Below are positions 4,929 through 24,065 of a stretch of DNA of 54,989 nucleotides, piece by piece. The translations under genes were made by a program, and so were the position numbers. Under the pieces are notes generated by a model that searched no databases, had not been told where the DNA came from, and was given only the letters and a program-made list of their open reading frames with translations. Position 1 is the first letter of the stretch; each line of letters begins with the position of its first letter. This DNA comes from Alphaproteobacteria bacterium. Lineage in GTDB: Bacteria > Pseudomonadota > Alphaproteobacteria > Elsterales > Elsteraceae. The DNA is taken from NCBI GenBank assembly GCA_013298565.1, contig JAAFIC010000011.1:1-54989 (forward strand), read 5' to 3'.

Positions 4929-5917
4929 CACAGCCGCACGGCAAGGCAGCTAGCCGCGCCCATTGCCGCAGGCAGTGCTTGCGTTGTTGACGGCCCGGTC
5001 ACGCTGTTAATCAGATAAGTGTTTCCGCCCGCCCCCAAAAACACAAACCGCCCGCCTTGCGACACAATGGGGCGTTCGGTGTTGAAAATGGTGGACGCGG
5101 CGGGCAAGGCGGGTGAGATAGGCTGGAGCGTCTGCCCCGCATCGGTCGTGTAACCCATCATCGTATCGGCGTAACTGTAAGCCAACACGACACCATTGGC
5201 ATAGGCCGTGCCGCGATAATAGCCCAGTGTAAGGACGGTAGGATTGCTCTGATCGAACCACGCCGCCCCATCCGCCGACCGCGCCAATCCGGGAATGCTG
5301 GCAACGCGGGCGGGGCCGAACCACACGCCGTTGAGGTGCGCGATTTGATATTTTCCAACGCCCGCAACATCAAACGCCTTCACCGCCACCCACGCCGCCG
5401 CATCGTTCGCGCGATGATACCAGTTGGCTTCGTTGGCGATGACCGACACTCCGGCTTCCGAGCGCTCGAAGCTGGCAACGAAGGTCGCAGGCTGCGGCCC
5501 GCCAACCAGCGTCCAGGTTTGCCCGCCGTTAACACTGGTCATAACGCTCATTGCACTGCCGTCATACCCTACAGCCCACCACGCACCCGCCCGCCAGCGC
5601 AAAAACCCAAGCGTGCTGTAGCCCGACGGGAAGGTTGGCACAAAGCTGCCCCAGTTAATCAAATCCGGGGCGGACCACATAACCCCGGCGGTTTGATCCC
5701 ACACTAACCAGCGGTCGCCATAATCGGCGCTATTGCCCTTCACGCCGGGGATGAATACCCACGGCTGCCCCGCGCCCAGCGACCGCGCGGCCCCGGACGC
5801 GCCGACGGCCAGCAAGCGCTGAATAAGGCTGTTGTTTACGGTGATCGAAAACGCACGATCTGCGAAAGCCCCACTCGCGGCTGTCGCGCGCGCGGTGAAA
5901 TTAAAGGTCTCAGGCAT
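4928..5917 (-). CDS. Beta-propeller-type tail fibre/receptor-binding protein
   Basis: A 329-residue protein. The N-terminus (FNFTARATAASGAFADRAFS) matches the closing strands of putative Ig (He_PIG/cadherin-like) domains. The rest is a series of short Trp-rich repeats with Asp-box-like motifs (SVNGGQTWTLV, SADGAAWFDQS), as in BNR/sialidase propellers. It probably binds a cell-surface glycan. It lies downstream of the He_PIG repeat gene (14 bases) and directly upstream of the lysis genes. No catalytic sialidase triad is evident, so a binding role is more likely than an enzymatic one. Confidence 0.6.
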   Translation of the reverse strand: MPETFNFTARATAASGAFADRAFSITVNNSLIQRLLAVGASGAARSLGAGQPWVFIPGVKGNSADYGDRWLVWDQTAGVMWSAPDLINWGSFVPTFPSGYSTLGFLRWRAGAWWAVGYDGSAMSVMTSVNGGQTWTLVGGPQPATFVASFERSEAGVSVIANEANWYHRANDAAAWVAVKAFDVAGVGKYQIAHLNGVWFGPARVASIPGLARSADGAAWFDQSNPTVLTLGYYRGTAYANGVVLAYSYADTMMGYTTDAGQTLQPISPALPAASTIFNTERPIVSQGGRFVFLGAGGNTYLINSVTGPSTTQALPAAMGAASCLAVRL

Positions 5918-6830: not shown

Positions 6831-8135
6831 CTACGCCTCCTTGTAAACGATAGCGGCATCCCAGCGGGTTTCCCCTTGGGCTGCTGACAGGGCGATACGG
6901 GTGCGGGTATTCGGGCCGGTCGCAATGCTACCCATCGCGCCGCCGTTCCACCTGACCGCCTCGCCCGCAGGCGCATTCAGCACGAGCGTGCGCCCGCCCG
7001 TTGCGTCCTGGTCGATGATGAGCGTGACGCCGATGATCGTGTTGGTGTTGGCAATACGCGCGGGCAGCGTCAGCGTCGCATTCCCTGTCAGGCGATAGTG
7101 GTAGGTGTTCTGACTGTCGAGCGTGGGCAGGGTCGCGGTTGTACTCACATCGGCGCGCACTTGCTTGGCTTCGCGCACGCCCACCAGCCGCCCACCCACG
7201 ATATTCCGATTGGTGAAGAATTGCCCGACAGTGCTTTTACCGAGCGCCCCTGCCGCCGTGCTGGTCGGGATAATGTCGGTATCGGCCACGGTTGCGCGCG
7301 CGGGAAGCGCGGGAAGCAGCGCGTTCCCCGTGATCTGACCCGGCGTGCCATCAGGCTTGCAAACGATAAAGCCTGCCGTTCCTGCGGCAAAATCCGCCGC
7401 AAGACCAGGCAACCCATCGGTCTTTAGGCTGACGGTCGAGGTTGCGCCCGAGACGGTGACGGCAACGCCCTTCGCCCCGTCCCCCGCAACGAGGGCGGGA
7501 TTGCCTTGGTCGCCCTTCGGCCCCGCAGGACCAATACCGCCCACAGCGCCCGCAGCACCAGCAGGACCAGCAGGACCAGTCGGACCCACAGGCCCCGCAT
7601 TGCCAGGATCGCCCTTCGCGCCCGGCAAGCCGATAGGGCCAGCCACGCCAGGGGTGCCAGCCGGACCCGTTGAACCAGCCGCACCGGGAGCGCCCTGCGG
7701 CCCCGGAAGACCCTGAACCCCTGGGAGACCTTGAGCGCCTTGAGGGCCTTGCGGCCCGGCAACGTCATACGCCGCCCACGCCGCCCCATCCCAACGCAGC
7801 AAACTAGAGGCAGCGATATTGATGACCAACGCGCCCGGCGTCGGCGGCTCGAAGCTCCAGGCGTTTACCGGGGCGGCCCCTGCCGGGGTGCCAACCCATT
7901 CGGCAATCTCCCCCGCCTTCCCCGCGAACGCCCCCGTGGGCGCGGCCCCGATAAGCCAACGCTGTTGGTGCGCGGGGGTGATCGGCGGCGCGCTCAACAC
8001 CGCCAGCACGGGCTGCCGCCAAGACGATCCGGCAAGGCGCAGCAGCATGTTATTCAGAATAAACGCAGCATCGCGCAAAACAGTGCCCGTGCCATCGTCG
8101 GCAACGGCACCGGGATACAGAAGTTGTGTGTGCAT
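6831..8135 (-). CDS. Collagen-like tail fibre with DUF2793 domain
   Basis: A 434-residue protein. Residues 1-125 resemble DUF2793 ([21 protein letters not shown], then [13 protein letters not shown]). Residues about 130-215 are an uninterrupted Gly-X-Y collagen-like stretch ([20 protein letters not shown] and on). The C-terminal part is beta-rich ([20 protein letters not shown]). It would trimerise through the collagen segment and form the shaft of a fibre. The Gly-X-Y DNA is repetitive and prone to length change, so fibre length may vary among strains. Confidence 0.75.
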
Positions 8136-8146
8136 GGGGGCGATTC

Positions 8147-9457
8147 CTAGCGAATATAAACGAAGGTCACGGTTTCAGAAACCGGGCGCATCACGCGCCA
8201 ACGGTCGCCGAGCGGCTGGCCCGTGAGCACGGGGACTTGCCCCAGCAGACCAATCAGGCACCACTCGGGGCGTTGCGAGCGCGGAATGTAGGGCCGCGAT
8301 GGGTCGTAGGCAGGGTTGAGCGCCTGAGTGCGGTAGGGGGTGCCGTCCACGTCCGTCACATCGGCCCACACCGGCGCACCGAAAGCATCGGTTAAATACA
8401 TCCCGGCCCAATGGGATTCAGCCGCATTGCCGATCAGTGCCAAGCGGGTATCGGCGGGGCGCGTTACACCCATAATATCGGCAGGATCATCCTGCGCCGT
8501 CGCGGCTTGCACTCGACCGTTCTTCAGAACAACGGCCAACCCTGGCGCGAGCGGCAGACCGCTAGCCGTCTCGAACCATTCGGCGTAATCGGCGGCTTGA
8601 ATGGTCGCATTTTTTCCGTGAAAAACGCCGTCCATCGTAATCTTCGCCTGAAGCGCGCCAATGTTGGCGTAACCAGCAAGCCAATTCTTTGCCGGGTCTG
8701 GCGCTTGACTGACCGCAAGTCCCGCGCAGTCGGTAAAGTTCATCGGTTGCGAGCCGTCCAGTTTGGTGCCGCCCCGTAGGCAAACCCCCCCATCACCGCC
8801 CGAAGCCCCGGTTGCGCCATTCTCGACGCCGAGGCCGCCAGGCCCCCAACTGGCGTTGGTCGTGCCGCCCGTATAATCAATCCGGTTATCTCTCGAGAAC
8901 AGCAGATTGCCGCTAGCGGCTGACCCCCCGTAAACATCCGGCGTATCGGTCAGGTCGATGAATTTATCAACCCCGCTGCCGCCCCCGCCGCCACCGCCCC
9001 CAGAGGCGTTGAGCGTAAACGTGCCACCCGAAAGACTAATGCTGCCCGTCACATTGCCGCCGCTTTGGGTTAAACTCGCGGGAAGTGCGGGGGCGTTGAG
9101 GGTGAATTTCTTGTTCTTAATCGTGCCACTAACATTGCCGCCCTGCTGCACGAACTCGAGATCGTTCAAGGCTTGCTCGATCAAAAGTTTGGCAATGCGC
9201 TCGGCGATCTTCTCAATCGCTACGCCCAACTGGGTCCAGTCGGTATAGGTCGGCACCAGTCCGGCCTTTAGAATGGCGTTGCGAATGCACTCGGTAATCA
9301 TATTCGCCCAATAGGCGCGCAGCGGCGTGCCGAGAAAGCCTGCCTCCAGATCGCAGTCGATAAAAAAGCCCGGCTTATCGTGAATCGAGCCGGGCGGGGG
9401 AATGTCTAAAGGGTTCGGCACAACCAGCGTTGTGTCGGCATCGCGCAAGCGATCCAT
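8147..9457 (-). CDS. Tail fibre with C-terminal self-cleaving peptidase-G2-like domain
   Basis: A 436-residue protein. The N-terminal 100 residues probably attach to the baseplate. Then come two short hydrophilic repeats ([16 protein letters not shown]) and a glycine run, followed by a fibre body. The last about 150 residues carry DYAEWFE, a hydrophobic strand pair ([14 protein letters not shown]), an IMGVTRP segment and [11 protein letters not shown], matching the layout of peptidase_G2 (IMC-type autoprocessing chaperone). Such domains assist trimer folding and then cut themselves off. The cleavage is inferred from the family, not visible. It is the first fibre gene after the baseplate genes. 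Confidence 0.65.
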
Positions 9458-12012: not shown

Positions 12013-13452
12013 TTAAAGCGGGTAGCTGTAGATCGTCCGGCCACAGCGCGCGTCGAGTTCGGCTTCGCGCGCCAGCTTCTTGCGGAGGTCATAGATGTCG
12101 ATGGCGGGCGCGGCGCGGTTCATGTCGATTACGCGCAAGTTTAGCAGCAGAGCATCCTGGGATTCTTCAAGTTGCTTGAGTGTTATAGGCGCATCTTCCG
12201 GCGCTACAGGCGGGGGCAACGCAATCCGCTGCGGCACCCGGCGCGGGCCGGTAGTGTCGTCCACCAGGCTTGGCGGCGGTGAGACAGTCAGGCCGATCCC
12301 TATTTGTTCCTTCGTCGGCAGGGCTGGAAGCTCGAACACGGGCAGCGCCGCGCGCCCGTGGCGCGCCCCGCCTTTCGACCCAAGACTGGGAACCCTCTTC
12401 AACAATGGCGGCAGCGCGGCCCGCTCGGGCGGTTTCGCGCCAAGATTCCCCCAAACCGAGGCTATCTGTCGGCGCTTTGTCGCCTCTTCTGGGGTGAGGG
12501 TGGTAACGGGACGATCGTTCAGCGTCAGCACCCCAGCGTCATTCACCAAGTACAGACGATCCATCGACGCAACCTCGACCCCGAAAGCCGCGCCAATCCG
12601 GGGATCGTCGCGCAGGACGGTCAGATACGCCTGCCATTTCTGCTTTTGTTCGGGTGAGAGCGTGTCAAAGCCAATATTCGTGACCATTTTAGCAAAATCG
12701 CCATCTCCGAATACTTCAGCCAAGGCGGGCGATCTGAGGTGCGTTGTATCGTCGCTTGGACCAAATGAACCCGCTCCGTCCAAGATACCGCGCGTCTCCC
12801 GAAACTCCAGCCCACCCGCCAGATAAAAATCAAGCGCCTGAGGGCGCTTATAAATTTGCGAATAGGCGGCGGCGGTATCTTGCCGCGCGGCGGCATCGAA
12901 AAACTTCCCAAAATCCTTTTCGAAAACCTCGCCCTCGAAGGTGCCGATGTCGAGATAGGGCAAGTTTCGGTACCAGGCGACGAGTTGATTCATCCACTCC
13001 GTATACTCTCCCTTCAGACTATTCGCTGCCGACCCGGCCCAATGTTCAGGTTCGAGGGAGATGCCCTTTGTGCTGAGGACGACGTCTTCAATTAAAGCCT
13101 CTGCGTTATCCTCTGGGATTCCCTTTTCCAGCACTTTATTAACAATCCTCAATGCCAATCTATCGGAAGCATCCTGGAACGCAATTGGGGTTAATGTCTG
13201 CCCCTTCCGAAGGGCGGCGAGCTTCATGCTGAACCGAACATAATTTGCCAGTTGTCCCTCGCCCTGATTGATCTGCGTCGCAAGATGGTACCAATTCGGC
13301 ACCGCAGGCTTGATAGCGGAATTGGCACGGGCCATGACCTCCAAGCGCCGATAAATCTCGGGCCAATTCTTATCAACTTTCAAGGTCTCAATTTCCGCTT
13401 TCTGGGTGTCAGTCAGCGGAAACCTTTTTTCGGTTACGGGGGAATTTGTCAT
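12013..13452 (-). CDS. Cargo protein 1, candidate tail-delivered effector
   Basis: A 479-residue protein that I do not recognise. Residues 1-48 form a separable head (MTNSPVTEKRFPLTDTQKAE ... ARANSAIK) that exists again as a truncated copy at 14114-14263. Residues 50-330 are mostly helical, and 340-430 are Pro-rich and probably disordered. It has no signal peptide or membrane segment. The ATG lies inside the 3' end of the preceding membrane-protein gene (44-base overlap), implying coupled translation. Head plus variable body, an associated membrane protein, and duplicated remnants are typical of polymorphic toxin systems; effector function is inferred. An accessory baseplate protein is the alternative. 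Confidence 0.5.
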   Translation of the reverse strand: MTNSPVTEKRFPLTDTQKAEIETLKVDKNWPEIYRRLEVMARANSAIKPAVPNWYHLATQINQGEGQLANYVRFSMKLAALRKGQTLTPIAFQDASDRLALRIVNKVLEKGIPEDNAEALIEDVVLSTKGISLEPEHWAGSAANSLKGEYTEWMNQLVAWYRNLPYLDIGTFEGEVFEKDFGKFFDAAARQDTAAAYSQIYKRPQALDFYLAGGLEFRETRGILDGAGSFGPSDDTTHLRSPALAEVFGDGDFAKMVTNIGFDTLSPEQKQKWQAYLTVLRDDPRIGAAFGVEVASMDRLYLVNDAGVLTLNDRPVTTLTPEEATKRRQIASVWGNLGAKPPERAALPPLLKRVPSLGSKGGARHGRAALPVFELPALPTKEQIGIGLTVSPPPSLVDDTTGPRRVPQRIALPPPVAPEDAPITLKQLEESQDALLLNLRVIDMNRAAPAIDIYDLRKKLAREAELDARCGRTIYSYPL

Positions 13453-14089
13453 AATTGCCAGTCTCCATAGCAGTTAAGAGAGAATCGAGAACGCCGTTCG
13501 GTTGAATGAAATCGCAGAGATCGTCCTTTCGTCCAGCGGCCCTATCGAAATAGTAATTCTTATAATTTCCATATGTTGAAATATAAAAATCTTCCTTACA
13601 TACATTATTAGTTAATAGACTCCCACTAATACCGAACGAAATAGGTTCAATCCAAAATATATTATAATCATTATAAGAAATATTAGGATTAGACGAGCAA
13701 TATGGATAGCGGCCAATACAGACTTTATTGGTTTCAGGCTCCCGATGGATCAGAACACGCAAAGGAAAAACCCTGCACTCCCCCCATAAGGGATTGCAAA
13801 GTGTCGTTTCTCTCCCCGAATAACGGGCCGGCTGGGCTACATCGGAACGGACATATAGCAGCCGATCCTCAAGCCGGTAGCGGAACATCAGCGTATCTTC
13901 GCCCGGTTCGGCAAACAACCAGACCGCTAGAGTGGAAAAAGGGAATTCTTCGTAATACCAATCAGAGATTCTATATAAAGAAAAAACTATTACTAAATAT
14001 ATAATTAGACTATAAATTGGAAAAAAGAGAATCAAAAAAAACGATTTTATCGGATTGTTTTTGATCCAATTTAAAAGACGTTTGAGCAT
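13409..14089 (-). CDS. Membrane-anchored partner of cargo 1, candidate immunity protein
   Basis: A 226-residue protein. Residues about 14-38 are one strong membrane segment (FFLILFFPIYSLIIYLVIVF); the rest should face the periplasm and carries Cys pairs (LCNPLWGEC, KVCIGRYPYC). It ends with LLTAMETGNYDKFPRN, whose codons contain the start of cargo protein 1. It is AT-rich compared with the baseplate genes. A close paralogue, now frameshifted, is at 14220-14901. It could protect against cargo 1 in the periplasm, or be a superinfection-exclusion protein. The start ATG at 14089 matches the start of the paralogue. Confidence 0.5.
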   Translation of the reverse strand: MLKRLLNWIKNNPIKSFFLILFFPIYSLIIYLVIVFSLYRISDWYYEEFPFSTLAVWLFAEPGEDTLMFRYRLEDRLLYVRSDVAQPARYSGRETTLCNPLWGECRVFPLRVLIHREPETNKVCIGRYPYCSSNPNISYNDYNIFWIEPISFGISGSLLTNNVCKEDFYISTYGNYKNYYFDRAAGRKDDLCDFIQPNGVLDSLLTAMETGNYDKFPRNRKKVSAD

Positions 14090-14113
14090 TCTCGATACCC
14101 CAATCTGCTAATA

Positions 14114-14263
14114 CTAGAGTTTAATCGCTGAATTAGCGCGGGCCATGACCTCCAAGCGTCGATAAATCTCGGGCCAATTCTTATCAGCTTTCAAGGTCTC
14201 AATTTCCGCTTTCTGGGCCTCAGTCAGCGGAAACCTTTTGTCGGTTACGGGGGAATTTGTCAT
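14114..14263 (-). CDS. Truncated orphan copy of the cargo 1 N-terminus
   Basis: A 49-residue frame: ATG at 14263, TAG at 14114-14116. It matches residues 1-48 of cargo protein 1 at 44 of 48 positions, then stops after one extra residue. It starts inside the end of the frameshifted membrane-protein copy, exactly as the full gene does with its own partner, and is followed 24 bases later by the intact membrane-protein gene. It is a remnant of a duplication in which the body of the cargo gene was lost. It may still be translated as a small protein (for example a decoy or loading domain), but this is not shown. Confidence 0.6.
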   Translation of the reverse strand: MTNSPVTDKRFPLTEAQKAEIETLKADKNWPEIYRRLEVMARANSAIKL

Positions 14264-14901
14264 AATTGCCAGTCTCCATAGCAGTTAAGAGGGAATCGAG
14301 CACGCCGTTGGGTTGGACTAGGGGACAAATTGTTTGTGGATGACCATAGACTCGGCCAACATAATAATCTCGATATCTTCCAAAGGTAAAAATATTATAG
14401 TTTTCGTTACAAGCGCGAATCTCCAATTTTCCATCATAATTTGCATAACTTGGGGGGGTATATTACAAACTCGGCTCGATAAGCATAAGGCACATCGAGA
14501 ATTGATGAGCAGTCTGGATAGCGATTGATACAGATTTTACCTGTTTCAGGTTCTTTATAGATCGGCACTTCCAAAGGAAAAACCCGACACTCTCCCCAGA
14601 GAGGATTACAAATCGCCTTTTCTCTTCCCGAATATCGGGCAGGCATCGCTACATCGGAGCGGACATACAGCAACCGATCCCCAAGGCGATAGCGGAACAT
14701 CAAAGTGTCTTCGCCCGGTTCTGCAAACAGCCTGACCGCTAGAGTGGAAAAAGGGAATTCTTCATAATACCAATCAGAGAGTCTGTATAAAGAAAAAACT
14801 ATTATTAAATAAATAACCAGGCCATAAACTGGAAAAAAAAGAATCAAGAAGAACAATTTTACTGGATGATTTTTGATCCACCTCCAAAAACGCTTCAGCA
14901 T
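14220..14901 (-). pseudogene. Frameshifted second copy of the membrane-anchored partner
   Basis: Paralogue of the 13409-14089 gene. The first frame runs from ATG 14901 (GGAG upstream) to a stop at 14434. The matching remainder continues in another frame to 14220 (ending TAMETGNYDKFPRNRQ). The frames meet at a run of seven G on the plus strand (14452-14458); removing one base restores the full reading frame. The N-terminal membrane segment and one Cys pair are kept. Replication slippage at the run (pseudogene or phase variation) or a sequencing error would explain it. Confidence 0.75.
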
Positions 14902-15068: not shown

Positions 15069-15466
15069 TTAACGCCCGCCGCGCATCAGGCTGACGCGCT
15101 CTTCTGCTTCCGCGTGGGCCAGCAGAAAATCTTTCACGTCGAGCGCGTCGATTTCCGAGGGTTGCCAGTGGAAGACGGCGGCAATATCCGCCCTTAGCTC
15201 GCGCCAGTTCCGAGGAACGGTTGGCAGAAAGGGCGCAGGAACTCCAGCAGCTTCGGATATTCCTCCGCCGAGATCGCCTCGATCAACTCCACCGGCTCCC
15301 CAGCCAGGGCGGCGAGCAGATAGAGCGTCGCCCCCAGGGGGCCATCGGCCCGGTCGAAGGCTTTCAGGTCACGGATTTTAAGCTCGGTGCGAAACTGCAA
15401 CTCCTCCACGCGGCGGCTGGCGGTAAATTGAACGGGCGTTGCCAGGGTATAGGTTAGTTTGTCCAT
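15069..15466 (-). CDS. Tail assembly chaperone A (gpE-type with -1 frameshift)
   Basis: The 0 frame (15194-15466, 90 residues, starting MDKLTYTLATPVQF) is a Phage_TAC_7 / P2 gpE-type chaperone. At codons 79-80 the slip site C_CCT_TTC (15227-15233) allows a -1 shift that bypasses the stop and continues to 15069. This adds 52 residues with the GpE motif ADIAAVFHWQPSEI, for a 132-residue product. Such pairs coat the tape measure during tube assembly. The start has GGAGAA upstream, right after a terminator. It is one of three paralogues in the operon and lies between gp45 and cargo cassette 1, far from the tape measure gene. Confidence 0.75.
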
Positions 15467-18472: not shown

Positions 18473-20407
18473 TTAGCCGAACGGGCCGCCAAAATCCCGG
18501 TGCCGATAGCCGTTGGGATTGTGGATCGTGGCCCCGCACAACACCGCTTCCTCAAACGGCGTCCACCCATGCCGGGGCCGCCGCGCGTAGCGCTCAATCT
18601 CACCCCGAACCAGCTTACCCAGCCGCTCCTCCTCCTCAAACGCCGCCACCTCCGCCGCCTGCTGCTCATCGGCAGCCTGCGCCAGTTGCTCGGCAGTGGA
18701 GGGGCCGGGAGGGCGCGCGAGCGGGGTGGGGCCGCCAATGGGAATGAAGGAGAGGGGCAACTCCATCGGCTCGAAACTGTTTTTCTTTGGCTTCACCGAC
18801 TCCTTTAGATAGGGCCTCCGTTCGCTCTTGGGCGATTTTTGTTTATCTTTTGTTCCTTTAATGGTTAGGCTAGGCCCTGCGGAAGAGGGGGATGGCGCAC
18901 TTGAACCAACCCGGACATCCAGCGTGGCTAAATCAGACGGGGAGCGCGAGGCTTTCGCCAATCCCTCCCGTCCATTTTTCGCCAAATCTTTGGGGATACG
19001 GTAGAAAATTGTCTTTCTGGTTCCGTCCGCACCGCGATAAGCGATCGGATGCGTTGCCGATGTGGTCGGGTCCGTCCCCTCTGCGGGCGGATAGGTGCGA
19101 ACCATTTCGGCCATAACGCGCCGATTACTCTTTAGGTATTCCTCCACCAAGCCGCTGTCTAACGGGCGCTTTCCCTTATCTTTGGCCTCCCACTCCGCCT
19201 GAATGACCGACTTGATGTTGGACTGCAAATAATTCGCCGGATCAATCCCATACCAAATCGACCAATCAATTTCCTGGCTTATGTCGGGCATGGCTTCGAC
19301 GTTAGCAAAGAAATGCGGATTACTGACGTATATTTCATCATAAGCCTTGCGGTAGGCTGAGGAAAACTGATTATGCGGAGCATAGTCTAAGCGCAGTTCT
19401 TCAGGCGTCAGCGGCTCACCCGCGCTCACTTTCTTAGGGTCGCGTTGGTGGTTCGTGTAGGAGAAAACCCCGACATCCTTAAAGAGAATATGCCCTGAGT
19501 AGAGGTGCGCTTCGGGGTTTAGTTTTTTATTATCGCCGTTAACGTCAATGCCACGCTTCTCGCCATCTTGCATATATTGTACGCGGTCATCCTTCCCATC
19601 GGGAACGGTTAAGATCAACCCCGGCTCGTCGGGTTTCTGAGGCGTCGGCAAGAAAAACTCCTTAGCGCCGACTCTAAAGTCGGTCTGGCTGACCGTAATG
19701 TCGGTGTTTGTGTTCAGGAGAGTCTTTTCTGTCGCGCCCTTATAGAGAATATGGCCAGGCTTTTTTAATTTGGTAACAAAGGGTCGCGCTAAAGCTCGTT
19801 GGTTGATTTCCAAGCCCCCGGTGGCAACGGACTCTGGCTTACCCGCTAACTCCACTTCTTTCCCATCAAGATAGTCCTTAAGTGTCTTCGGATCCCCCGC
19901 ATTGATCGTCTTGAGAATCCAGGCCATCGACTGCGGATCTTGGATGAGCTTCGATGCCGCCTTATTCGTGAAAATACTCTCACCGCGTTTCTCCAGTGCG
20001 GAGACCGTAAACTCCCGTGACAGCCTATCGACCAATATATGGCCCGCCGCTGTCGCCAGAAAGCCATTGATCTCCTCTCGATACTGACTGGAAAGGGCGG
20101 CGGCATTCTCCTTCACCTGGAGTTGTGCCGTTATGCCATCCACCCACTTACTATCAGCGTTTTTGCCTTGCGCGCGCAGCCAAGCCTGCGTGGCCTTAAC
20201 CAAATCGTCGCGTGCTGCATTTTTTTCACCCGCGAGATCAACCTGCACCAAGCCAATTGAATAACCCGATTTCTGCCCAGCGTGTTTAAGACTATAGGCC
20301 TCATTAGGCCGATCCCCCGACTCCGTGCGATGCGCCATATAGGCGTAGATTTTTCGTATCCAAGCGTCATTATCGAGGGGTGATGAGGTCGAAACTGTCG
20401 GCATCAT
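18473..20407 (-). CDS. Cargo protein 2, lysozyme-like candidate effector
   Basis: A 644-residue protein without signal peptide. Residues 20-55 read YAYMAHRTESG ... GYSIGLVQVDLAG, resembling the catalytic E-S-G and GLxQ motifs of transglycosylase/lysozyme folds (candidate catalytic Glu29). Residues 60-400 are unrecognised. About 500-590 is low-complexity Ser/Pro/Lys, and the tail ends GWTPFEEAVLCGATIHNPNG. The starts ATG 20407 and 20404 both lie inside the upstream exported-protein gene (38-base overlap); the GGAG spacing favours the second. It replaces the position between chaperones and gpN where a tape measure gene usually sits. Roles considered: tail muramidase for entry, or antibacterial effector with the two upstream proteins as inhibitors. 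Confidence 0.5.
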   Translation of the reverse strand: MMPTVSTSSPLDNDAWIRKIYAYMAHRTESGDRPNEAYSLKHAGQKSGYSIGLVQVDLAGEKNAARDDLVKATQAWLRAQGKNADSKWVDGITAQLQVKENAAALSSQYREEINGFLATAAGHILVDRLSREFTVSALEKRGESIFTNKAASKLIQDPQSMAWILKTINAGDPKTLKDYLDGKEVELAGKPESVATGGLEINQRALARPFVTKLKKPGHILYKGATEKTLLNTNTDITVSQTDFRVGAKEFFLPTPQKPDEPGLILTVPDGKDDRVQYMQDGEKRGIDVNGDNKKLNPEAHLYSGHILFKDVGVFSYTNHQRDPKKVSAGEPLTPEELRLDYAPHNQFSSAYRKAYDEIYVSNPHFFANVEAMPDISQEIDWSIWYGIDPANYLQSNIKSVIQAEWEAKDKGKRPLDSGLVEEYLKSNRRVMAEMVRTYPPAEGTDPTTSATHPIAYRGADGTRKTIFYRIPKDLAKNGREGLAKASRSPSDLATLDVRVGSSAPSPSSAGPSLTIKGTKDKQKSPKSERRPYLKESVKPKKNSFEPMELPLSFIPIGGPTPLARPPGPSTAEQLAQAADEQQAAEVAAFEEEERLGKLVRGEIERYARRPRHGWTPFEEAVLCGATIHNPNGYRHRDFGGPFG

Positions 20408-21206
20408 AATCTCCTTTCTTGAGATTGGTAAAAAAAGAAATTAAACACGCCTCTTCATAAAAATCTGATTTATAATCATCAGATACATCACTATAATGGT
20501 ACATTTTTTTTTCTGTACAGTCAGGATTATTATTCCAAACTTGCACTAAATACCGAATCGGCGCATAAACAAGTCGGTCCCTAACAATTATTGTTCCGCG
20601 CATGTGAATTGGTATTTTATAAAAAAAAGCATCCGATTGAGGGTGAAGGTATAAATCCCCAGCAGGGGATATTTGAATATCACTATCCTCTAAATATCTA
20701 AAATGAACTGAAACTCCTCTTCTTCCCAAATCACTAAAATTTCTAGTCATTAGTTTCTGCTTATGATCTATAATCAATGCGATCCACGCATTATCAAAAT
20801 CTGATTTCTTATAGGATGGATCTAATTCCGTATATCCTCGAAGATCGTCGTCTGTTGCAATAATTTTTACACCAAACTCATCAGTCTTCCAATTATAATA
20901 GGAATCTATGTCTTTTAAACCAACCTCCCCATTTGGATAGTCACGATCTTCTTTAGAAATATTACCAAATTTTTTTCTATCAATATTATAAGTATAAGTT
21001 TTTTTGTTTTTTTTGTAATTACGCCCAATGAAGACGACTTCATTTTTTTGATTATATCCGAAATACCCAATATCTATGTTTCCCCAATATTTTCGAGCAT
21101 TAAAAAATATTACCGGGTCGCTGGCTGCTAACGCCGCAATCGGCGTACCTTCGATCAACAAAAACAATACCAACACCATAAAACGGGAGAGGATGCTCAT
21201 TTTCAT
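20370..21206 (-). CDS. Exported partner of cargo 2, candidate periplasmic immunity protein
   Basis: A 278-residue protein with a signal peptide (FMVLVLFLLIEGTPIAALAA), hence periplasmic. The body is rich in Tyr, Lys and Asp (DPVIFFNARKYWGN, VVFIGRNYKKN, IIVRDRLVYAPIRYLV), with Cys near the end (NPDC, EEAC). It ends FFTNLKKGDYDADSF; the codons for KKGDYD supply the ribosome binding site and ATG of cargo 2. It is strongly AT-rich. It is a paralogue of the next gene (285 residues), with matching DPxIFF, EVVFIG and LLYAPxxY segments. Inhibitor of a lysozyme-like cargo is my inference; the sequence family is unknown to me. Confidence 0.5.
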   Translation of the reverse strand: MKMSILSRFMVLVLFLLIEGTPIAALAASDPVIFFNARKYWGNIDIGYFGYNQKNEVVFIGRNYKKNKKTYTYNIDRKKFGNISKEDRDYPNGEVGLKDIDSYYNWKTDEFGVKIIATDDDLRGYTELDPSYKKSDFDNAWIALIIDHKQKLMTRNFSDLGRRGVSVHFRYLEDSDIQISPAGDLYLHPQSDAFFYKIPIHMRGTIIVRDRLVYAPIRYLVQVWNNNPDCTEKKMYHYSDVSDDYKSDFYEEACLISFFTNLKKGDYDADSFDLITPR

Positions 21207-21207
21207 T

Positions 21208-22065
21208 TTACTCCTTAATTTTTTGAGCCGCAGGATCTTTTATGATCACTATTTCGCCAGATGAATCGACGTCATAATTACCCCTCGGAAGGCTTTTCAA
21301 CGCAAATTCCAAACAATTGTTCTGAAGAGGGGGGTACAGATAAATTTCTCGCGGTATAGTAACTTTTTCACACCAGCGCGATCTATCCCAAATGTTAAAC
21401 ATATAAGAAGTAGGTGCGTACAATAATTTTTCCCGAACAATTATTTTATTTTGCATATTTTTTGGTATTTTATATAAAATAGCATTCTCAATAGAAACAA
21501 CATATAAATCACCTTCATTTGACATCGTCAAATCATAATCAAAATCAAAAAATGTATTAAATTTATACTGCTTCCATGTACGGGGTCTATTACGATGTAA
21601 AGTCTCAAATATAACCCACCAACGCATTTCTCTATTTTTATATCCGCGTACCACAATTAGCCAATCTTCAACCTTTTCAGACTCGCCATACTCTCCCAAC
21701 AAGGGATTAAATGGATTATATGACGTCATGATAAAATTCTCATTAAACTGCACAAATTTCAACCCCACGTCCGTTCTCTGCTTCATACCAAAATAATAGG
21801 GCCGCATTTTTAGCGTTTTGCTTTCCTGGTAGGACTTATCGAAACGCTTTTTATCGACATTATAAATGTACTTCGGCTGATTGTCCTTATACCCAACAAA
21901 AACCACATCCCCCTCGTTATTATAGGTCACGAAGCTGGAATCGACACGCCAGCCCTGCTTATAGCCATCGAAAAACACAATCGGGTCTTCGGTTCGGGGT
22001 TTGGCAAAGGCGGGGAGAGTTGCCATAAGGGTCATGATGGCTATAAGTGCCCATTTTAACATCAT
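21208..22065 (-). CDS. Second exported paralogue in cargo cassette 2
   Basis: A 285-residue protein with a signal peptide (LIAIMTLMATLPAFA). It shares with its downstream neighbour DPIVFFDGYKQGW, GDVVFVGYKDN, IIVREKLLYAPTSYMFNIW and a Cys-containing end leading to LKSLPRGNYDVDSS. After that motif it has 17 extra residues. Start ATG 22065 follows GAGGATAG; the open-frame start at 22131 has no support. Its stop is 1 base from the next start (GGAGTAAAATG). It is AT-rich. Two diverged copies beside one cargo gene suggest immunity to a related cargo that has been lost. Confidence 0.5.
   Translation of the reverse strand: MMLKWALIAIMTLMATLPAFAKPRTEDPIVFFDGYKQGWRVDSSFVTYNNEGDVVFVGYKDNQPKYIYNVDKKRFDKSYQESKTLKMRPYYFGMKQRTDVGLKFVQFNENFIMTSYNPFNPLLGEYGESEKVEDWLIVVRGYKNREMRWWVIFETLHRNRPRTWKQYKFNTFFDFDYDLTMSNEGDLYVVSIENAILYKIPKNMQNKIIVREKLLYAPTSYMFNIWDRSRWCEKVTIPREIYLYPPLQNNCLEFALKSLPRGNYDVDSSGEIVIIKDPAAQKIKE
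21249..21275 (-). other. Orphan ribosome binding site plus 8-codon minigene
   Basis: Inside the end of the 21208-22065 gene, in another frame, GAGGGG (21281-21286) stands 5 bases before an ATG at 21275. The frame reads MTSIHLAK and stops at 21249-21251. The position within the codons of G-N-Y-D matches exactly where the two cargo genes start in their partner genes. It looks like the leftover start of a deleted cargo gene. Confidence 0.45.
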
Positions 22066-22201
22066 TCTATCCTCACGCGGCTTCGATAGCCCTCGCCACC
22101 GATGCGCGGTAAAGTAGCACGACTGTTTCATCCTCTCCAGAAAAAAACGAACATTGGCAGAACATCAAAGCGGGGGAGGGCTGCATCCTCCCCCCGTGCC
22201 C

Positions 22202-22605
22202 TTAACCGCGCGGGGCGGCCCAGCGCTCCAAGAACTCGCTGGCAGCGGCGTGCCAAGCGAAAAGCTCAGGAAGTGGCAGGGCTTCGATGTCTGACAGCGG
22301 CCAGTGGAACACGCCCGCGAGATCGGCTACCAGCGCACGCCAATCGGCAGGAACTTCCCCACAAAAGGGCTGAGGAGTTCCAAGATGCCCAAGAAATCAT
22401 CACCGCTGAGGGCGTCGATCAACTCTTGCGGTTCATTGGATAGAATGGCGAACAGGCGGGCACTGAGCGCGAAGCCGCCGTCCGACGGGTCGATCCGTTT
22501 GAGGTCGCGCACTTTCAGATCGGCACGAAACGACAGTTCCGTGACCGTGCGGGTGGCGGTGAAGGCGACCGGGTGGTTCAGGCTATAGGTGAGAAGCTCA
22601 GACAT
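22202..22605 (-). CDS. Tail assembly chaperone B (gpE-type with -1 frameshift)
   Basis: The 0 frame (22327-22605, 92 residues, starting MSELLTYSLNHPVAF) is the chaperone. Slip site C_CCT_TTT (22363-22369) at codons 80-81 gives a -1 extension of 53 residues (ADLAGVFHWPLSDIEALPL) to the stop at 22202, a 134-residue product. AAGGAAA precedes the ATG. It follows chaperone C by 30 bases and precedes cargo cassette 2. It is more diverged from A and C than they are from each other (both begin MDK(L/I)xYTLxTPVQF). Confidence 0.75.
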
Positions 22606-22635: not shown

Positions 22636-23033
22636 TTAGGGGTGGGCGTGCCAGCGGGTGAGAAAATCCGCCGCCACCGCGTGCCAGAACTGGAGACTGT
22701 CGAGGCTTAAATTCTCCAGTTCCGACGGCGGCCAGTGGAAGACCCCGGCCAAATCGGCGATTAATTCGCGCCAGTTCCCAGGATAGTTTTCAAAAAAGGG
22801 CGGATCATCTCCTGCGCCTTGAAGAAGTCGTGCGCCGAGAGCGCGTCGATCAACTCCACCGGCTCGCCGGAGAGCAGACTGAGCAGGGTCGCCCCCGCCC
22901 CAACGCTGCCCTGCTGCCCTTCCAGGCGGCGCAGGTCGCGCACGCTCATGTCGGTCTTGAAGCTCAACGCCTCCACCCGGCGGCTCGGGGTGAATTGAAC
23001 CGGTGTGTCGAGCGTGTAGATGATTTTGTCCAT
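22636..23033 (-). CDS. Tail assembly chaperone C (gpE-type with -1 frameshift)
   Basis: The 0 frame (22761-23033, 90 residues, starting MDKIIYTLDTPVQF) ends ILGTGAN. Two overlapping slip sites are present at codons 79-81: C_CCT_TTT (22794-22800) and T_TTT_TTG (22791-22797); I recall the latter as the type reported for P2 gene E. A -1 shift at the first gives a 132-residue product ending at 22636, with the GpE motif ADLAGVFHWPPSELENLSL. GGGAGACTTCCT precedes the ATG, itself right after a terminator. As the first chaperone after the tape measure gene, it is the likeliest one to serve it. Confidence 0.8.
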
Positions 23034-23046
23034 AGGAAGTCTCCCT

Positions 23047-23073
23047 AAAAAAAGCCGGGGACTCGCCCCGGCT
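23047..23073 (-). terminator. Intrinsic terminator in front of chaperone C
   Basis: AGCCGGGG / CCCCGGCT stem of 8 bp with a 5-base loop and seven T on the minus strand. It ends 13 bases before the chaperone C start codon. Confidence 0.85.
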
Positions 23074-23186
23074 CGGTGAACCGCCCGCCCCAGGAGGGGG
23101 CAGCGGAAGAAGGAACGCCGCGCTTGACCCCGCCCCCTCGGGCTGGCAGCGTGGCGCGTGTTTATTGGCTTCAGGATCAACGCCCG

Positions 23187-24065
23187 ATGGTATTGCTCTG
23201 GCGGATCGCCGCACTGCTTCTCGCCCTCCTCCCGGCCCTGGCGCAGCCTGCTGCCGCCGGAGAGTTTTCTGTTGAGGAACAAAAGCTCGTCGCGGACATC
23301 CGGCAGAAAATGGATCAAACCACCCAACTCCTCATCTATGCCTATGAGAATGAGGAGAAAATGGACCTCGCGGAAATGCAGCGGGTGATGGTTGTGTTTA
23401 GAGAACTAGCCAAATGGTTTGAAAATAAAATCCCCGACCGGAGCTTCGAGCGGCGGACTGGCAGTTTCTGCGTGGGATCGGCTAGTTTTGCTTCCAGTTA
23501 CTGGCGTAACACTGAGTATTATTACAAATATAAAGGGTCTGAGGACGGAAAATATGTTGGCGCGCCCCGTACACTTAAAGAATTAAAGGACAGACAGACA
23601 GATCTCTTAGAGGGTCATTTTTTTGATTTTCAACAATGCTATATCCATCTGGATCAAGTCCCAACTAGGCTTGAGGATAAAGAAAGTGCCCCCAAAATTA
23701 ATATTACCACCATTCTTTCTATTCGTACAAATTCCTTAAAAATAGTACAAGATATACAAGATAAAATGAATTCTCGTAATCATACTGATTTCGCGCCCTT
23801 AATTAAAAAAGCCGATGCTCTTTATAAAAATTATTACTCAATCTCTAACCTTAAGATTGGGGGCGGGCTTTTGTGTGAAAATTTTGTTGATTTTCCGAAA
23901 CATTTTATCGAGAATTATATTTTGAGATATGGACAGAATTCAAAAAATCAGAAATTACCGGAGTCTCTATTTAAATTAGGATATAATGGGCTTCTTCATA
24001 GTTACTATCGTGACGTAAAATTATGCGATAATTTTGTCAAGAAATATAAAGAAAGACGCCCCTGA
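23187..24065 (+). CDS. Secreted hypothetical protein, opposite strand to the tail operon
   Basis: A 292-residue protein with a signal peptide (MVLLWRIAALLLALLPALAQ ... AAAG) and six Cys in the mature part (FCVGS, QQCYI, LLCEN, KLCDN and others). The middle is mainly helical and charged. Codon use changes from GC-rich at the start to AT-rich after about 23400. It is not recognised. It sits between the tape measure gene and chaperone C but on the plus strand, so it needs its own promoter, like a moron. It could be a further periplasmic protection protein. The start ATG 23187 has only a weak AGGA site. Confidence 0.5.
   Translation: MVLLWRIAALLLALLPALAQPAAAGEFSVEEQKLVADIRQKMDQTTQLLIYAYENEEKMDLAEMQRVMVVFRELAKWFENKIPDRSFERRTGSFCVGSASFASSYWRNTEYYYKYKGSEDGKYVGAPRTLKELKDRQTDLLEGHFFDFQQCYIHLDQVPTRLEDKESAPKINITTILSIRTNSLKIVQDIQDKMNSRNHTDFAPLIKKADALYKNYYSISNLKIGGGLLCENFVDFPKHFIENYILRYGQNSKNQKLPESLFKLGYNGLLHSYYRDVKLCDNFVKKYKERRP

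Follow-up and report, generated by a model that had tools for sequence, protein, structure and literature searches.

The 54,989-nucleotide stretch of alphaproteobacterial DNA considered here (hereafter the window) raises the question of how a 49-codon frame came to copy the start of a gene for a 479-aa protein and to end just before another copy of the gene that precedes it. We refer to the 479-aa protein as the cargo, to the preceding gene as its partner and to the copied piece as the head. A prophage makes up the window; its Mu-like baseplate genes were recognized by Pfam, namely the hub (GpP/gp44-like), gp45, gp46 and DNA-circulation families, along with tail, capsid, portal and terminase genes read from its ORFs only; the cargo module is situated between gp45 and gp46 (Table 1). 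The comparisons draw on the genome of the window (G000), that of a sister species (G001) and a third genome of the genus (G002), with the full module available in two genomes only, plus a truncated third copy. Elsewhere in the window, a tail protein (8147-9457, minus strand) contains a Peptidase_G2 domain of the autoproteolytic, intramolecular chaperone type, its neighbour (6831-8135) bears collagen-like Gly-X-Y repeats, and a plus-strand gene (23076-24065), opposite in orientation to the tail gene cluster in which it lies, encodes a 329-aa signal-peptide-like protein with no family match.

Table 1. Features of the cargo module, in window coordinates
Feature	Position	Strand	Basis or remark
Tail assembly chaperone paralogue (TACc) heading the cargo module	15194..15466	-	Family profile matches
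Partner copy 1 (probable immunity gene), broken	14220..14901	-	+1 frameshift relative to the other copies
C7 run at the partner copy 1 frameshift	14452..14458	-	Mutation, slippage or sequencing error all possible
Orphan head	14114..14263	-	49-codon copy of the cargo start; G001 counterpart L009:9119-9268
Duplication junction, orphan head/partner copy 2	14090..14120	-	Alignment; G001 has a homologous junction
Partner copy 2 (intact; 226 aa with a single N-terminal hydrophobic segment)	13409..14089	-	3' 44 nt overlap the cargo start
Cargo head, residues 1-49, source of the duplicated piece	13306..13452	-	DNA and protein comparison
479-aa cargo (probable toxin)	12013..13452	-	ORF, protein searches
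Hypervariable cargo stretch, residues 209-266 (G000 against G001)	12655..12828	-	38-52% identity; flanks 85-88%
Constant C-terminal tail, cargo residues 369-479	12016..12348	-	Common to a different-body cargo in G001

The orphan head and the tandem duplication

The orphan frame runs from MTNSPVTDKRF to NSAIKL, ending with IKL and a stop codon, and the initial annotation was correct in describing it as a copy of cargo residues 1-48 that terminates ahead of the next partner gene: 44 of 48 residues are identical, with four differences, and a whole-genome protein search recovers the pair with E = 3.7e-22, far beyond chance. The match at the DNA level begins upstream of the orphan head, and the entire preceding partner gene (14901-14220) has been duplicated too, with an identity of 81% over 410 bp in the 5' part of the partner copies, a drop in the middle, and 93% over the 195 bp comprising the partner 3' end and the cargo head. 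In both units the partner and cargo frames overlap by 44 nt (14263 to 14220 and 13452 to 13409); since the 3' end of the partner thus lies inside the cargo frame, copying a whole partner necessarily takes along at least the first cargo codons. The duplication extends to cargo codon 48 and is followed by a short junction (about 30 nt) and then by partner copy 2, with 24 nt between the orphan stop and that ORF (14089-13409). The orphan head is part of a tandem duplication of the partner gene together with the cargo start.

The same arrangement is seen in G001, in the order chaperone, partner 1 (broken), an orphan of 49 codons that ends in SIKL and a stop, an intact partner 2 and the cargo head. 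As the junctions of the two species align, a single ancestral duplication accounts for both; copying of the overlapping partner gene, with a junction common to the two species, is enough to explain the fragment in full. G002 has the chaperone and the beginning of a partner at this place, after which the contig ends.

The G001 contig stops inside the cargo head, and the sequence at this point has nine copies in the genome (none in a reversed control); the remainder of the cargo is on another contig, both having similar inverted ends. Hence, an insertion element probably interrupts the G001 cargo near codon 39; no transposase was seen, as the contigs end within the element. The element ends (L009:10047-10092 and L008:6955-7005) are imperfect inverted ends with a possible 3-bp target duplication. 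Both assemblies being drafts, this contig end might be taken to indicate that the second unit is an artefact of repeats that were collapsed or joined as chimeras. However, the repeated element with its nine copies explains the break, the two units are about 20% different over much of their length, and the assemblies of two species agree in this arrangement. Further, the longest exact repeat between the units is only 51 nt in G000 and 47 nt in G001, which makes assembly chimerism unlikely; altogether, we regard an assembly or sequencing artefact as extremely improbable.

An alternative history would have the head as the relic of a displaced older cargo, with a head and a first body once following partner 1 and an incoming partner-cargo cassette replacing that body and orphaning the head. 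Tandem immunity genes with a toxin stub are the expected debris of such an event, comparable to C-terminal displacement in Rhs proteins or the V. cholerae T6SS arrays, where displacement is documented (PMC5361080), and the partner alleles and one cargo segment do differ between the species. Against this, the 24 nt between the head stop and partner 2 hold no trace of another body, and cargo divergence does not set in at codon 48, directly after which G000 and G001 are still 87% identical. The head with a different body is likewise absent from every collection searched. The head itself is present in two of the 385 genomes of the class, with no match beyond G000 and G001 and only chance-level scores within the family, so that the expectation of finding it fused to other bodies in relatives was not borne out: it occurs only with the same body and as orphans, and in no relative at the family level. 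No instance on another body was found in the collections searched, which comprise few genomes. Scans of public genome and viral contigs for the cargo came back empty, those of viral and genome contigs for the cargo, tail, partner and hub detected no relatives, and phage records yielded none for the cargo. These observations leave displacement of an older cargo as an unlikely account. One further, weak head match, on contig 57 of G000 (E = 0.02, with an internal stop), crosses a 340-aa ORF without signs of a cargo module and was dismissed as chance. The predicted cargo structure, obtained from two sequences, is of very low confidence (mean pLDDT 34), and its very weak secondary structure would place residue 48, the putative end of a small head domain, inside a helix spanning residues 30-63.

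Lesions and sequence exchange in the partner copies

G000 and G001 each have two units, with tandem partner copies beside the putative toxin gene. Partner copy 1 of G000 is 682 nt in length as against 681 nt in the other three copies, and is 77% identical to copy 2 over the first 141 residues. The partner beside the orphan is broken and the one beside the cargo intact in both genomes, the lesion differing by species: a frameshift near the C7 run in G000, which, lying in a homopolymer, could perhaps be a sequencing error, and an in-frame TAA in G001.

Inspection of the four partner copies reveals a variable centre, of conflicting phylogeny, between conserved blocks at the 5' and 3' ends. The first ~250 nt group by species, and in every pair the identity over the last 70 nt is 90% or more. 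The centre groups partner 2 of G000 with partner 1 of G001 in a crossed pattern; over nt 250-540 these two are 76-91% identical, and every other pair falls below 50% somewhere. Among the informative site patterns, 34 group by species, 34 are crossed and 6 are positional, with 29 of the 34 crossed sites lying in nt 250-510 and 30 of the 34 species sites outside it (Fisher p = 1e-9, 68 sites); the best segment score was reached by none of 2000 permutations. The central segment found intact in partner 2 of G000 has decayed in G001, where it lies in partner 1. These patterns show that recombination is real and acts on the putative immunity copies, which are mosaics.

The within-genome dS of the heads is 0.30 and 0.20, as compared with 0.69-0.88 for baseplate genes between the species. 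Although the duplication predates the species split, its flanks and heads are homogenized within each genome, for which gene conversion is the simplest reading. This bears on the possibility that the 49-residue peptide is itself functional and retained for that reason, for instance by acting as a translated leader to which partner 2 is translationally coupled, or by serving as a small binding peptide. Its frame is open, with the stop at the same position, 24 nt ahead of the partner 2 start, in two diverged species, and there are few replacement changes between them (dN/dS about 0.08-0.15). However, with the heads homogenized within genomes, an open frame could be inherited from the functional head; gene conversion can produce the low dN/dS of the orphan and so explains it, without being proven by it. 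Moreover, the differences between the orphan and the head of its own genome outside the overlap (8 silent and 4 replacement in G000; 3.5 and 3.5 in G001) are insufficient in number to demonstrate that the orphan is constrained, and a functional peptide appears quite unlikely to us.

The idea of modular recombination, by which the fragment was initially interpreted, therefore survives in part: the partner copies have a mosaic structure and the cargo family is built of modules (see below), but the view of the break as an exchange boundary between head and body is not supported, as a duplication with a junction common to two species suffices.

The intact partners of G000 and G001 differ in their centre, and the cargos differ most in one internal stretch, residues 209-266, which is a candidate for the part recognized by the partner.

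The cargo family and its baseplate slot

A second cargo in G001, 468 aa in length and occupying the same slot, lacks the head, and its last 110 residues are 58% identical to those of the 479-aa cargo. The module common to the cargo family is hence the C-terminal 110 residues and not the head, with the N-terminal bodies differing. Classical polymorphic toxins combine a constant N-terminus with a variable C-terminal toxin domain; here the constant region lies at the opposite end, and no constant delivery region is seen at the N-terminus. The two G001 tails, carried on different bodies, show 88% DNA identity over 286 bp and resemble the G000 tail less than they resemble each other. Since the head is absent from the 468-aa cargo and the tail is common to both, the tail is likely a better candidate for docking to the particle, and the earlier suggestion that the head targets the protein there is accordingly disfavoured.

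The N-terminus of the 468-aa cargo offers a functional clue. Its residues 2-196 match the profile of the Smlt3024 family (NF050128; E = 7.3e-11, 41.4 bits), which, being far below the curated cut-off of 800 bits, marks it as a relative and not an equivalog, and also match PDB 9p3h (E = 5e-9). Smlt3024 is growth-inhibitory in the periplasm and is neutralized by Smlt3025, encoded directly upstream (PMC6759196); an immunity-like gene likewise lies directly upstream of the 468-aa cargo. Plasmid-borne relatives of this N-terminus include calcium-binding (RTX-type) and hypothetical proteins, most with a gene directly upstream, to which the 328-aa immunity-like protein of G001 has a marginal 26-residue match; the partner was also compared with these upstream genes and no relation was found. 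Neither the body of the 479-aa cargo nor the 226-aa partner matched a known family; a relation of that body to the Smlt3024 domain was considered and none was found (no NCBIfam match to NF050128; hhalign probability 0.7%). The 479-, 644- (see below) and 468-aa cargos have no Pfam match to the MuF domain, and no PAAR domain was matched anywhere in G000. The hydropathy profile of the partner displays one N-terminal segment, which fits periplasmic protection. By analogy with its sibling, the 479-aa protein is probably a toxin too, with the membrane-anchored 226-aa partner as its immunity protein; from the build of the module and the Smlt3024-like sibling, we infer that it would act in the periplasm and be docked to the tail via its C-terminal 110 residues.

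A second module (18473-22131, minus strand) has a 644-aa protein behind two tandem signal-peptide-like proteins of 278 and 307 aa that are related to each other (27% identity, E = 3e-28), again presenting tandem immunity-like genes. Genome G057 contains relatives of the N-terminus of the 644-aa protein, one of them within a protein that also shows a LysM-like stretch. Homology of its C-terminus to the constant tail is not claimed, as 10 of 500 shuffles scored better.

In the viral contig L035, whose baseplate J protein is 92% identical, gp45, an 89-aa PAAR protein and gp46 follow in a row, with no chaperone copy, partner or cargo between gp45 and gp46, i.e., an empty site. The PAAR gene (L035:8116-8385) occupies the slot held by the cargo module in the window. 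Tail-assembly-chaperone paralogues (Phage_TAC_7/phrog_166) number three per prophage, one before each toxin-like module (22761-23054, 22327-22605 and 15194-15466, minus strand, in the window; 1712-1981, 5050-5322 and 7919-8191 in L009), and only one was found in the module-less L035. A frame at 15070-15260 (minus strand; RNWRELRADIAAVFHW...) overlaps the end of the chaperone gene, as in programmed-frameshift tail chaperones.

A proposed history and its relation to known systems

Taken together, we consider an old tandem duplication of the overlapping immunity gene, followed by segment exchange, to be the best explanation, and a rather probable one. The cargo module of this contractile-tail prophage has a probable immunity gene before a probable toxin gene, overlapping by 44 nt. 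In an ancestor of the two species, the immunity gene and the first 48 toxin codons were duplicated in tandem, resulting in the order immunity 1, toxin-head stub, immunity 2 and toxin, as the structure and common junction show. Homologous exchange between the units, demonstrated by the site patterns, keeps the toxin heads as well as the 5' part and 3' end of the immunity gene similar in a given genome, and allows the central, putative specificity segment to move between units. The toxin-adjacent copy stays intact and the distal copy decays in both genomes, presumably under selection, and the head stub would be a passenger that may also serve as recombination homology.

Under such a history, head shuffling gives way to a testable account in which a toxin module carried by a phage switches immunity alleles between its tandem copies, and the stub of the toxin start arises merely from the overlap of the two genes. 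The likely particle-docking part shifts from the head to the C-terminal tail, and the baseplate slot between gp45 and gp46 is indicated as a cargo site in this phage lineage. A more speculative extension, which we offer only tentatively, is that of a temperate contractile-tail phage lineage with interchangeable toxin-immunity cassettes at the site of a relative's PAAR spike tip, bearing a common C-terminal docking tail and their own chaperone paralogue, which may load them, with specificity switched by exchange between tandem immunity genes. If true, polymorphic toxins would have a class that is borne by phages and reversed in polarity.

The closest parallels are the tandem T7SS immunity families esaG and tipC, in which recombination at conserved 5' and 3' blocks reshuffles the variable centre, and among which partial toxin copies (tspA, rhs) can sit (PMC9484751). 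The tandem paralogues, conserved ends around a variable centre and partial toxin copy are shared, with immunity being putative in our case, but here the genes form a phage-tail module with two copies only. Moreover, the tspA fragment comes from the 3' end, whereas the stub described here is the toxin N-terminus, because the immunity and toxin genes overlap. The V. cholerae T6SS arrays (PMC5361080) similarly have orphan immunity copies beside the current effector-immunity pair of a contractile injection machine; however, those are non-homologous pairs from outside, in contrast to homologous units duplicated in place and still exchanging sequence. The X-T4SS effector Smlt3024 and its periplasmic immunity protein Smlt3025 (PMC6759196) resemble the G001 sibling in its N-terminus and upstream immunity-like gene, but the sibling has a phage-specific C-terminal tail with no T4SS setting seen, and the 479-aa cargo itself shows no relation. 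The MuF toxins of temperate phages (PMC5576092) are likewise proposed to travel with the particle and have an adjacent immunity gene; however, they are tied to the head of the particle, and their MuF domain is constant and N-terminal whereas their C-terminus varies, as opposed to a constant C-terminus and a gene in the baseplate cluster. The mechanism is thus known in kind from esaG/tipC and the displacement arrays, and the phage setting and the constant C-terminal tail make the present system a variant of it.
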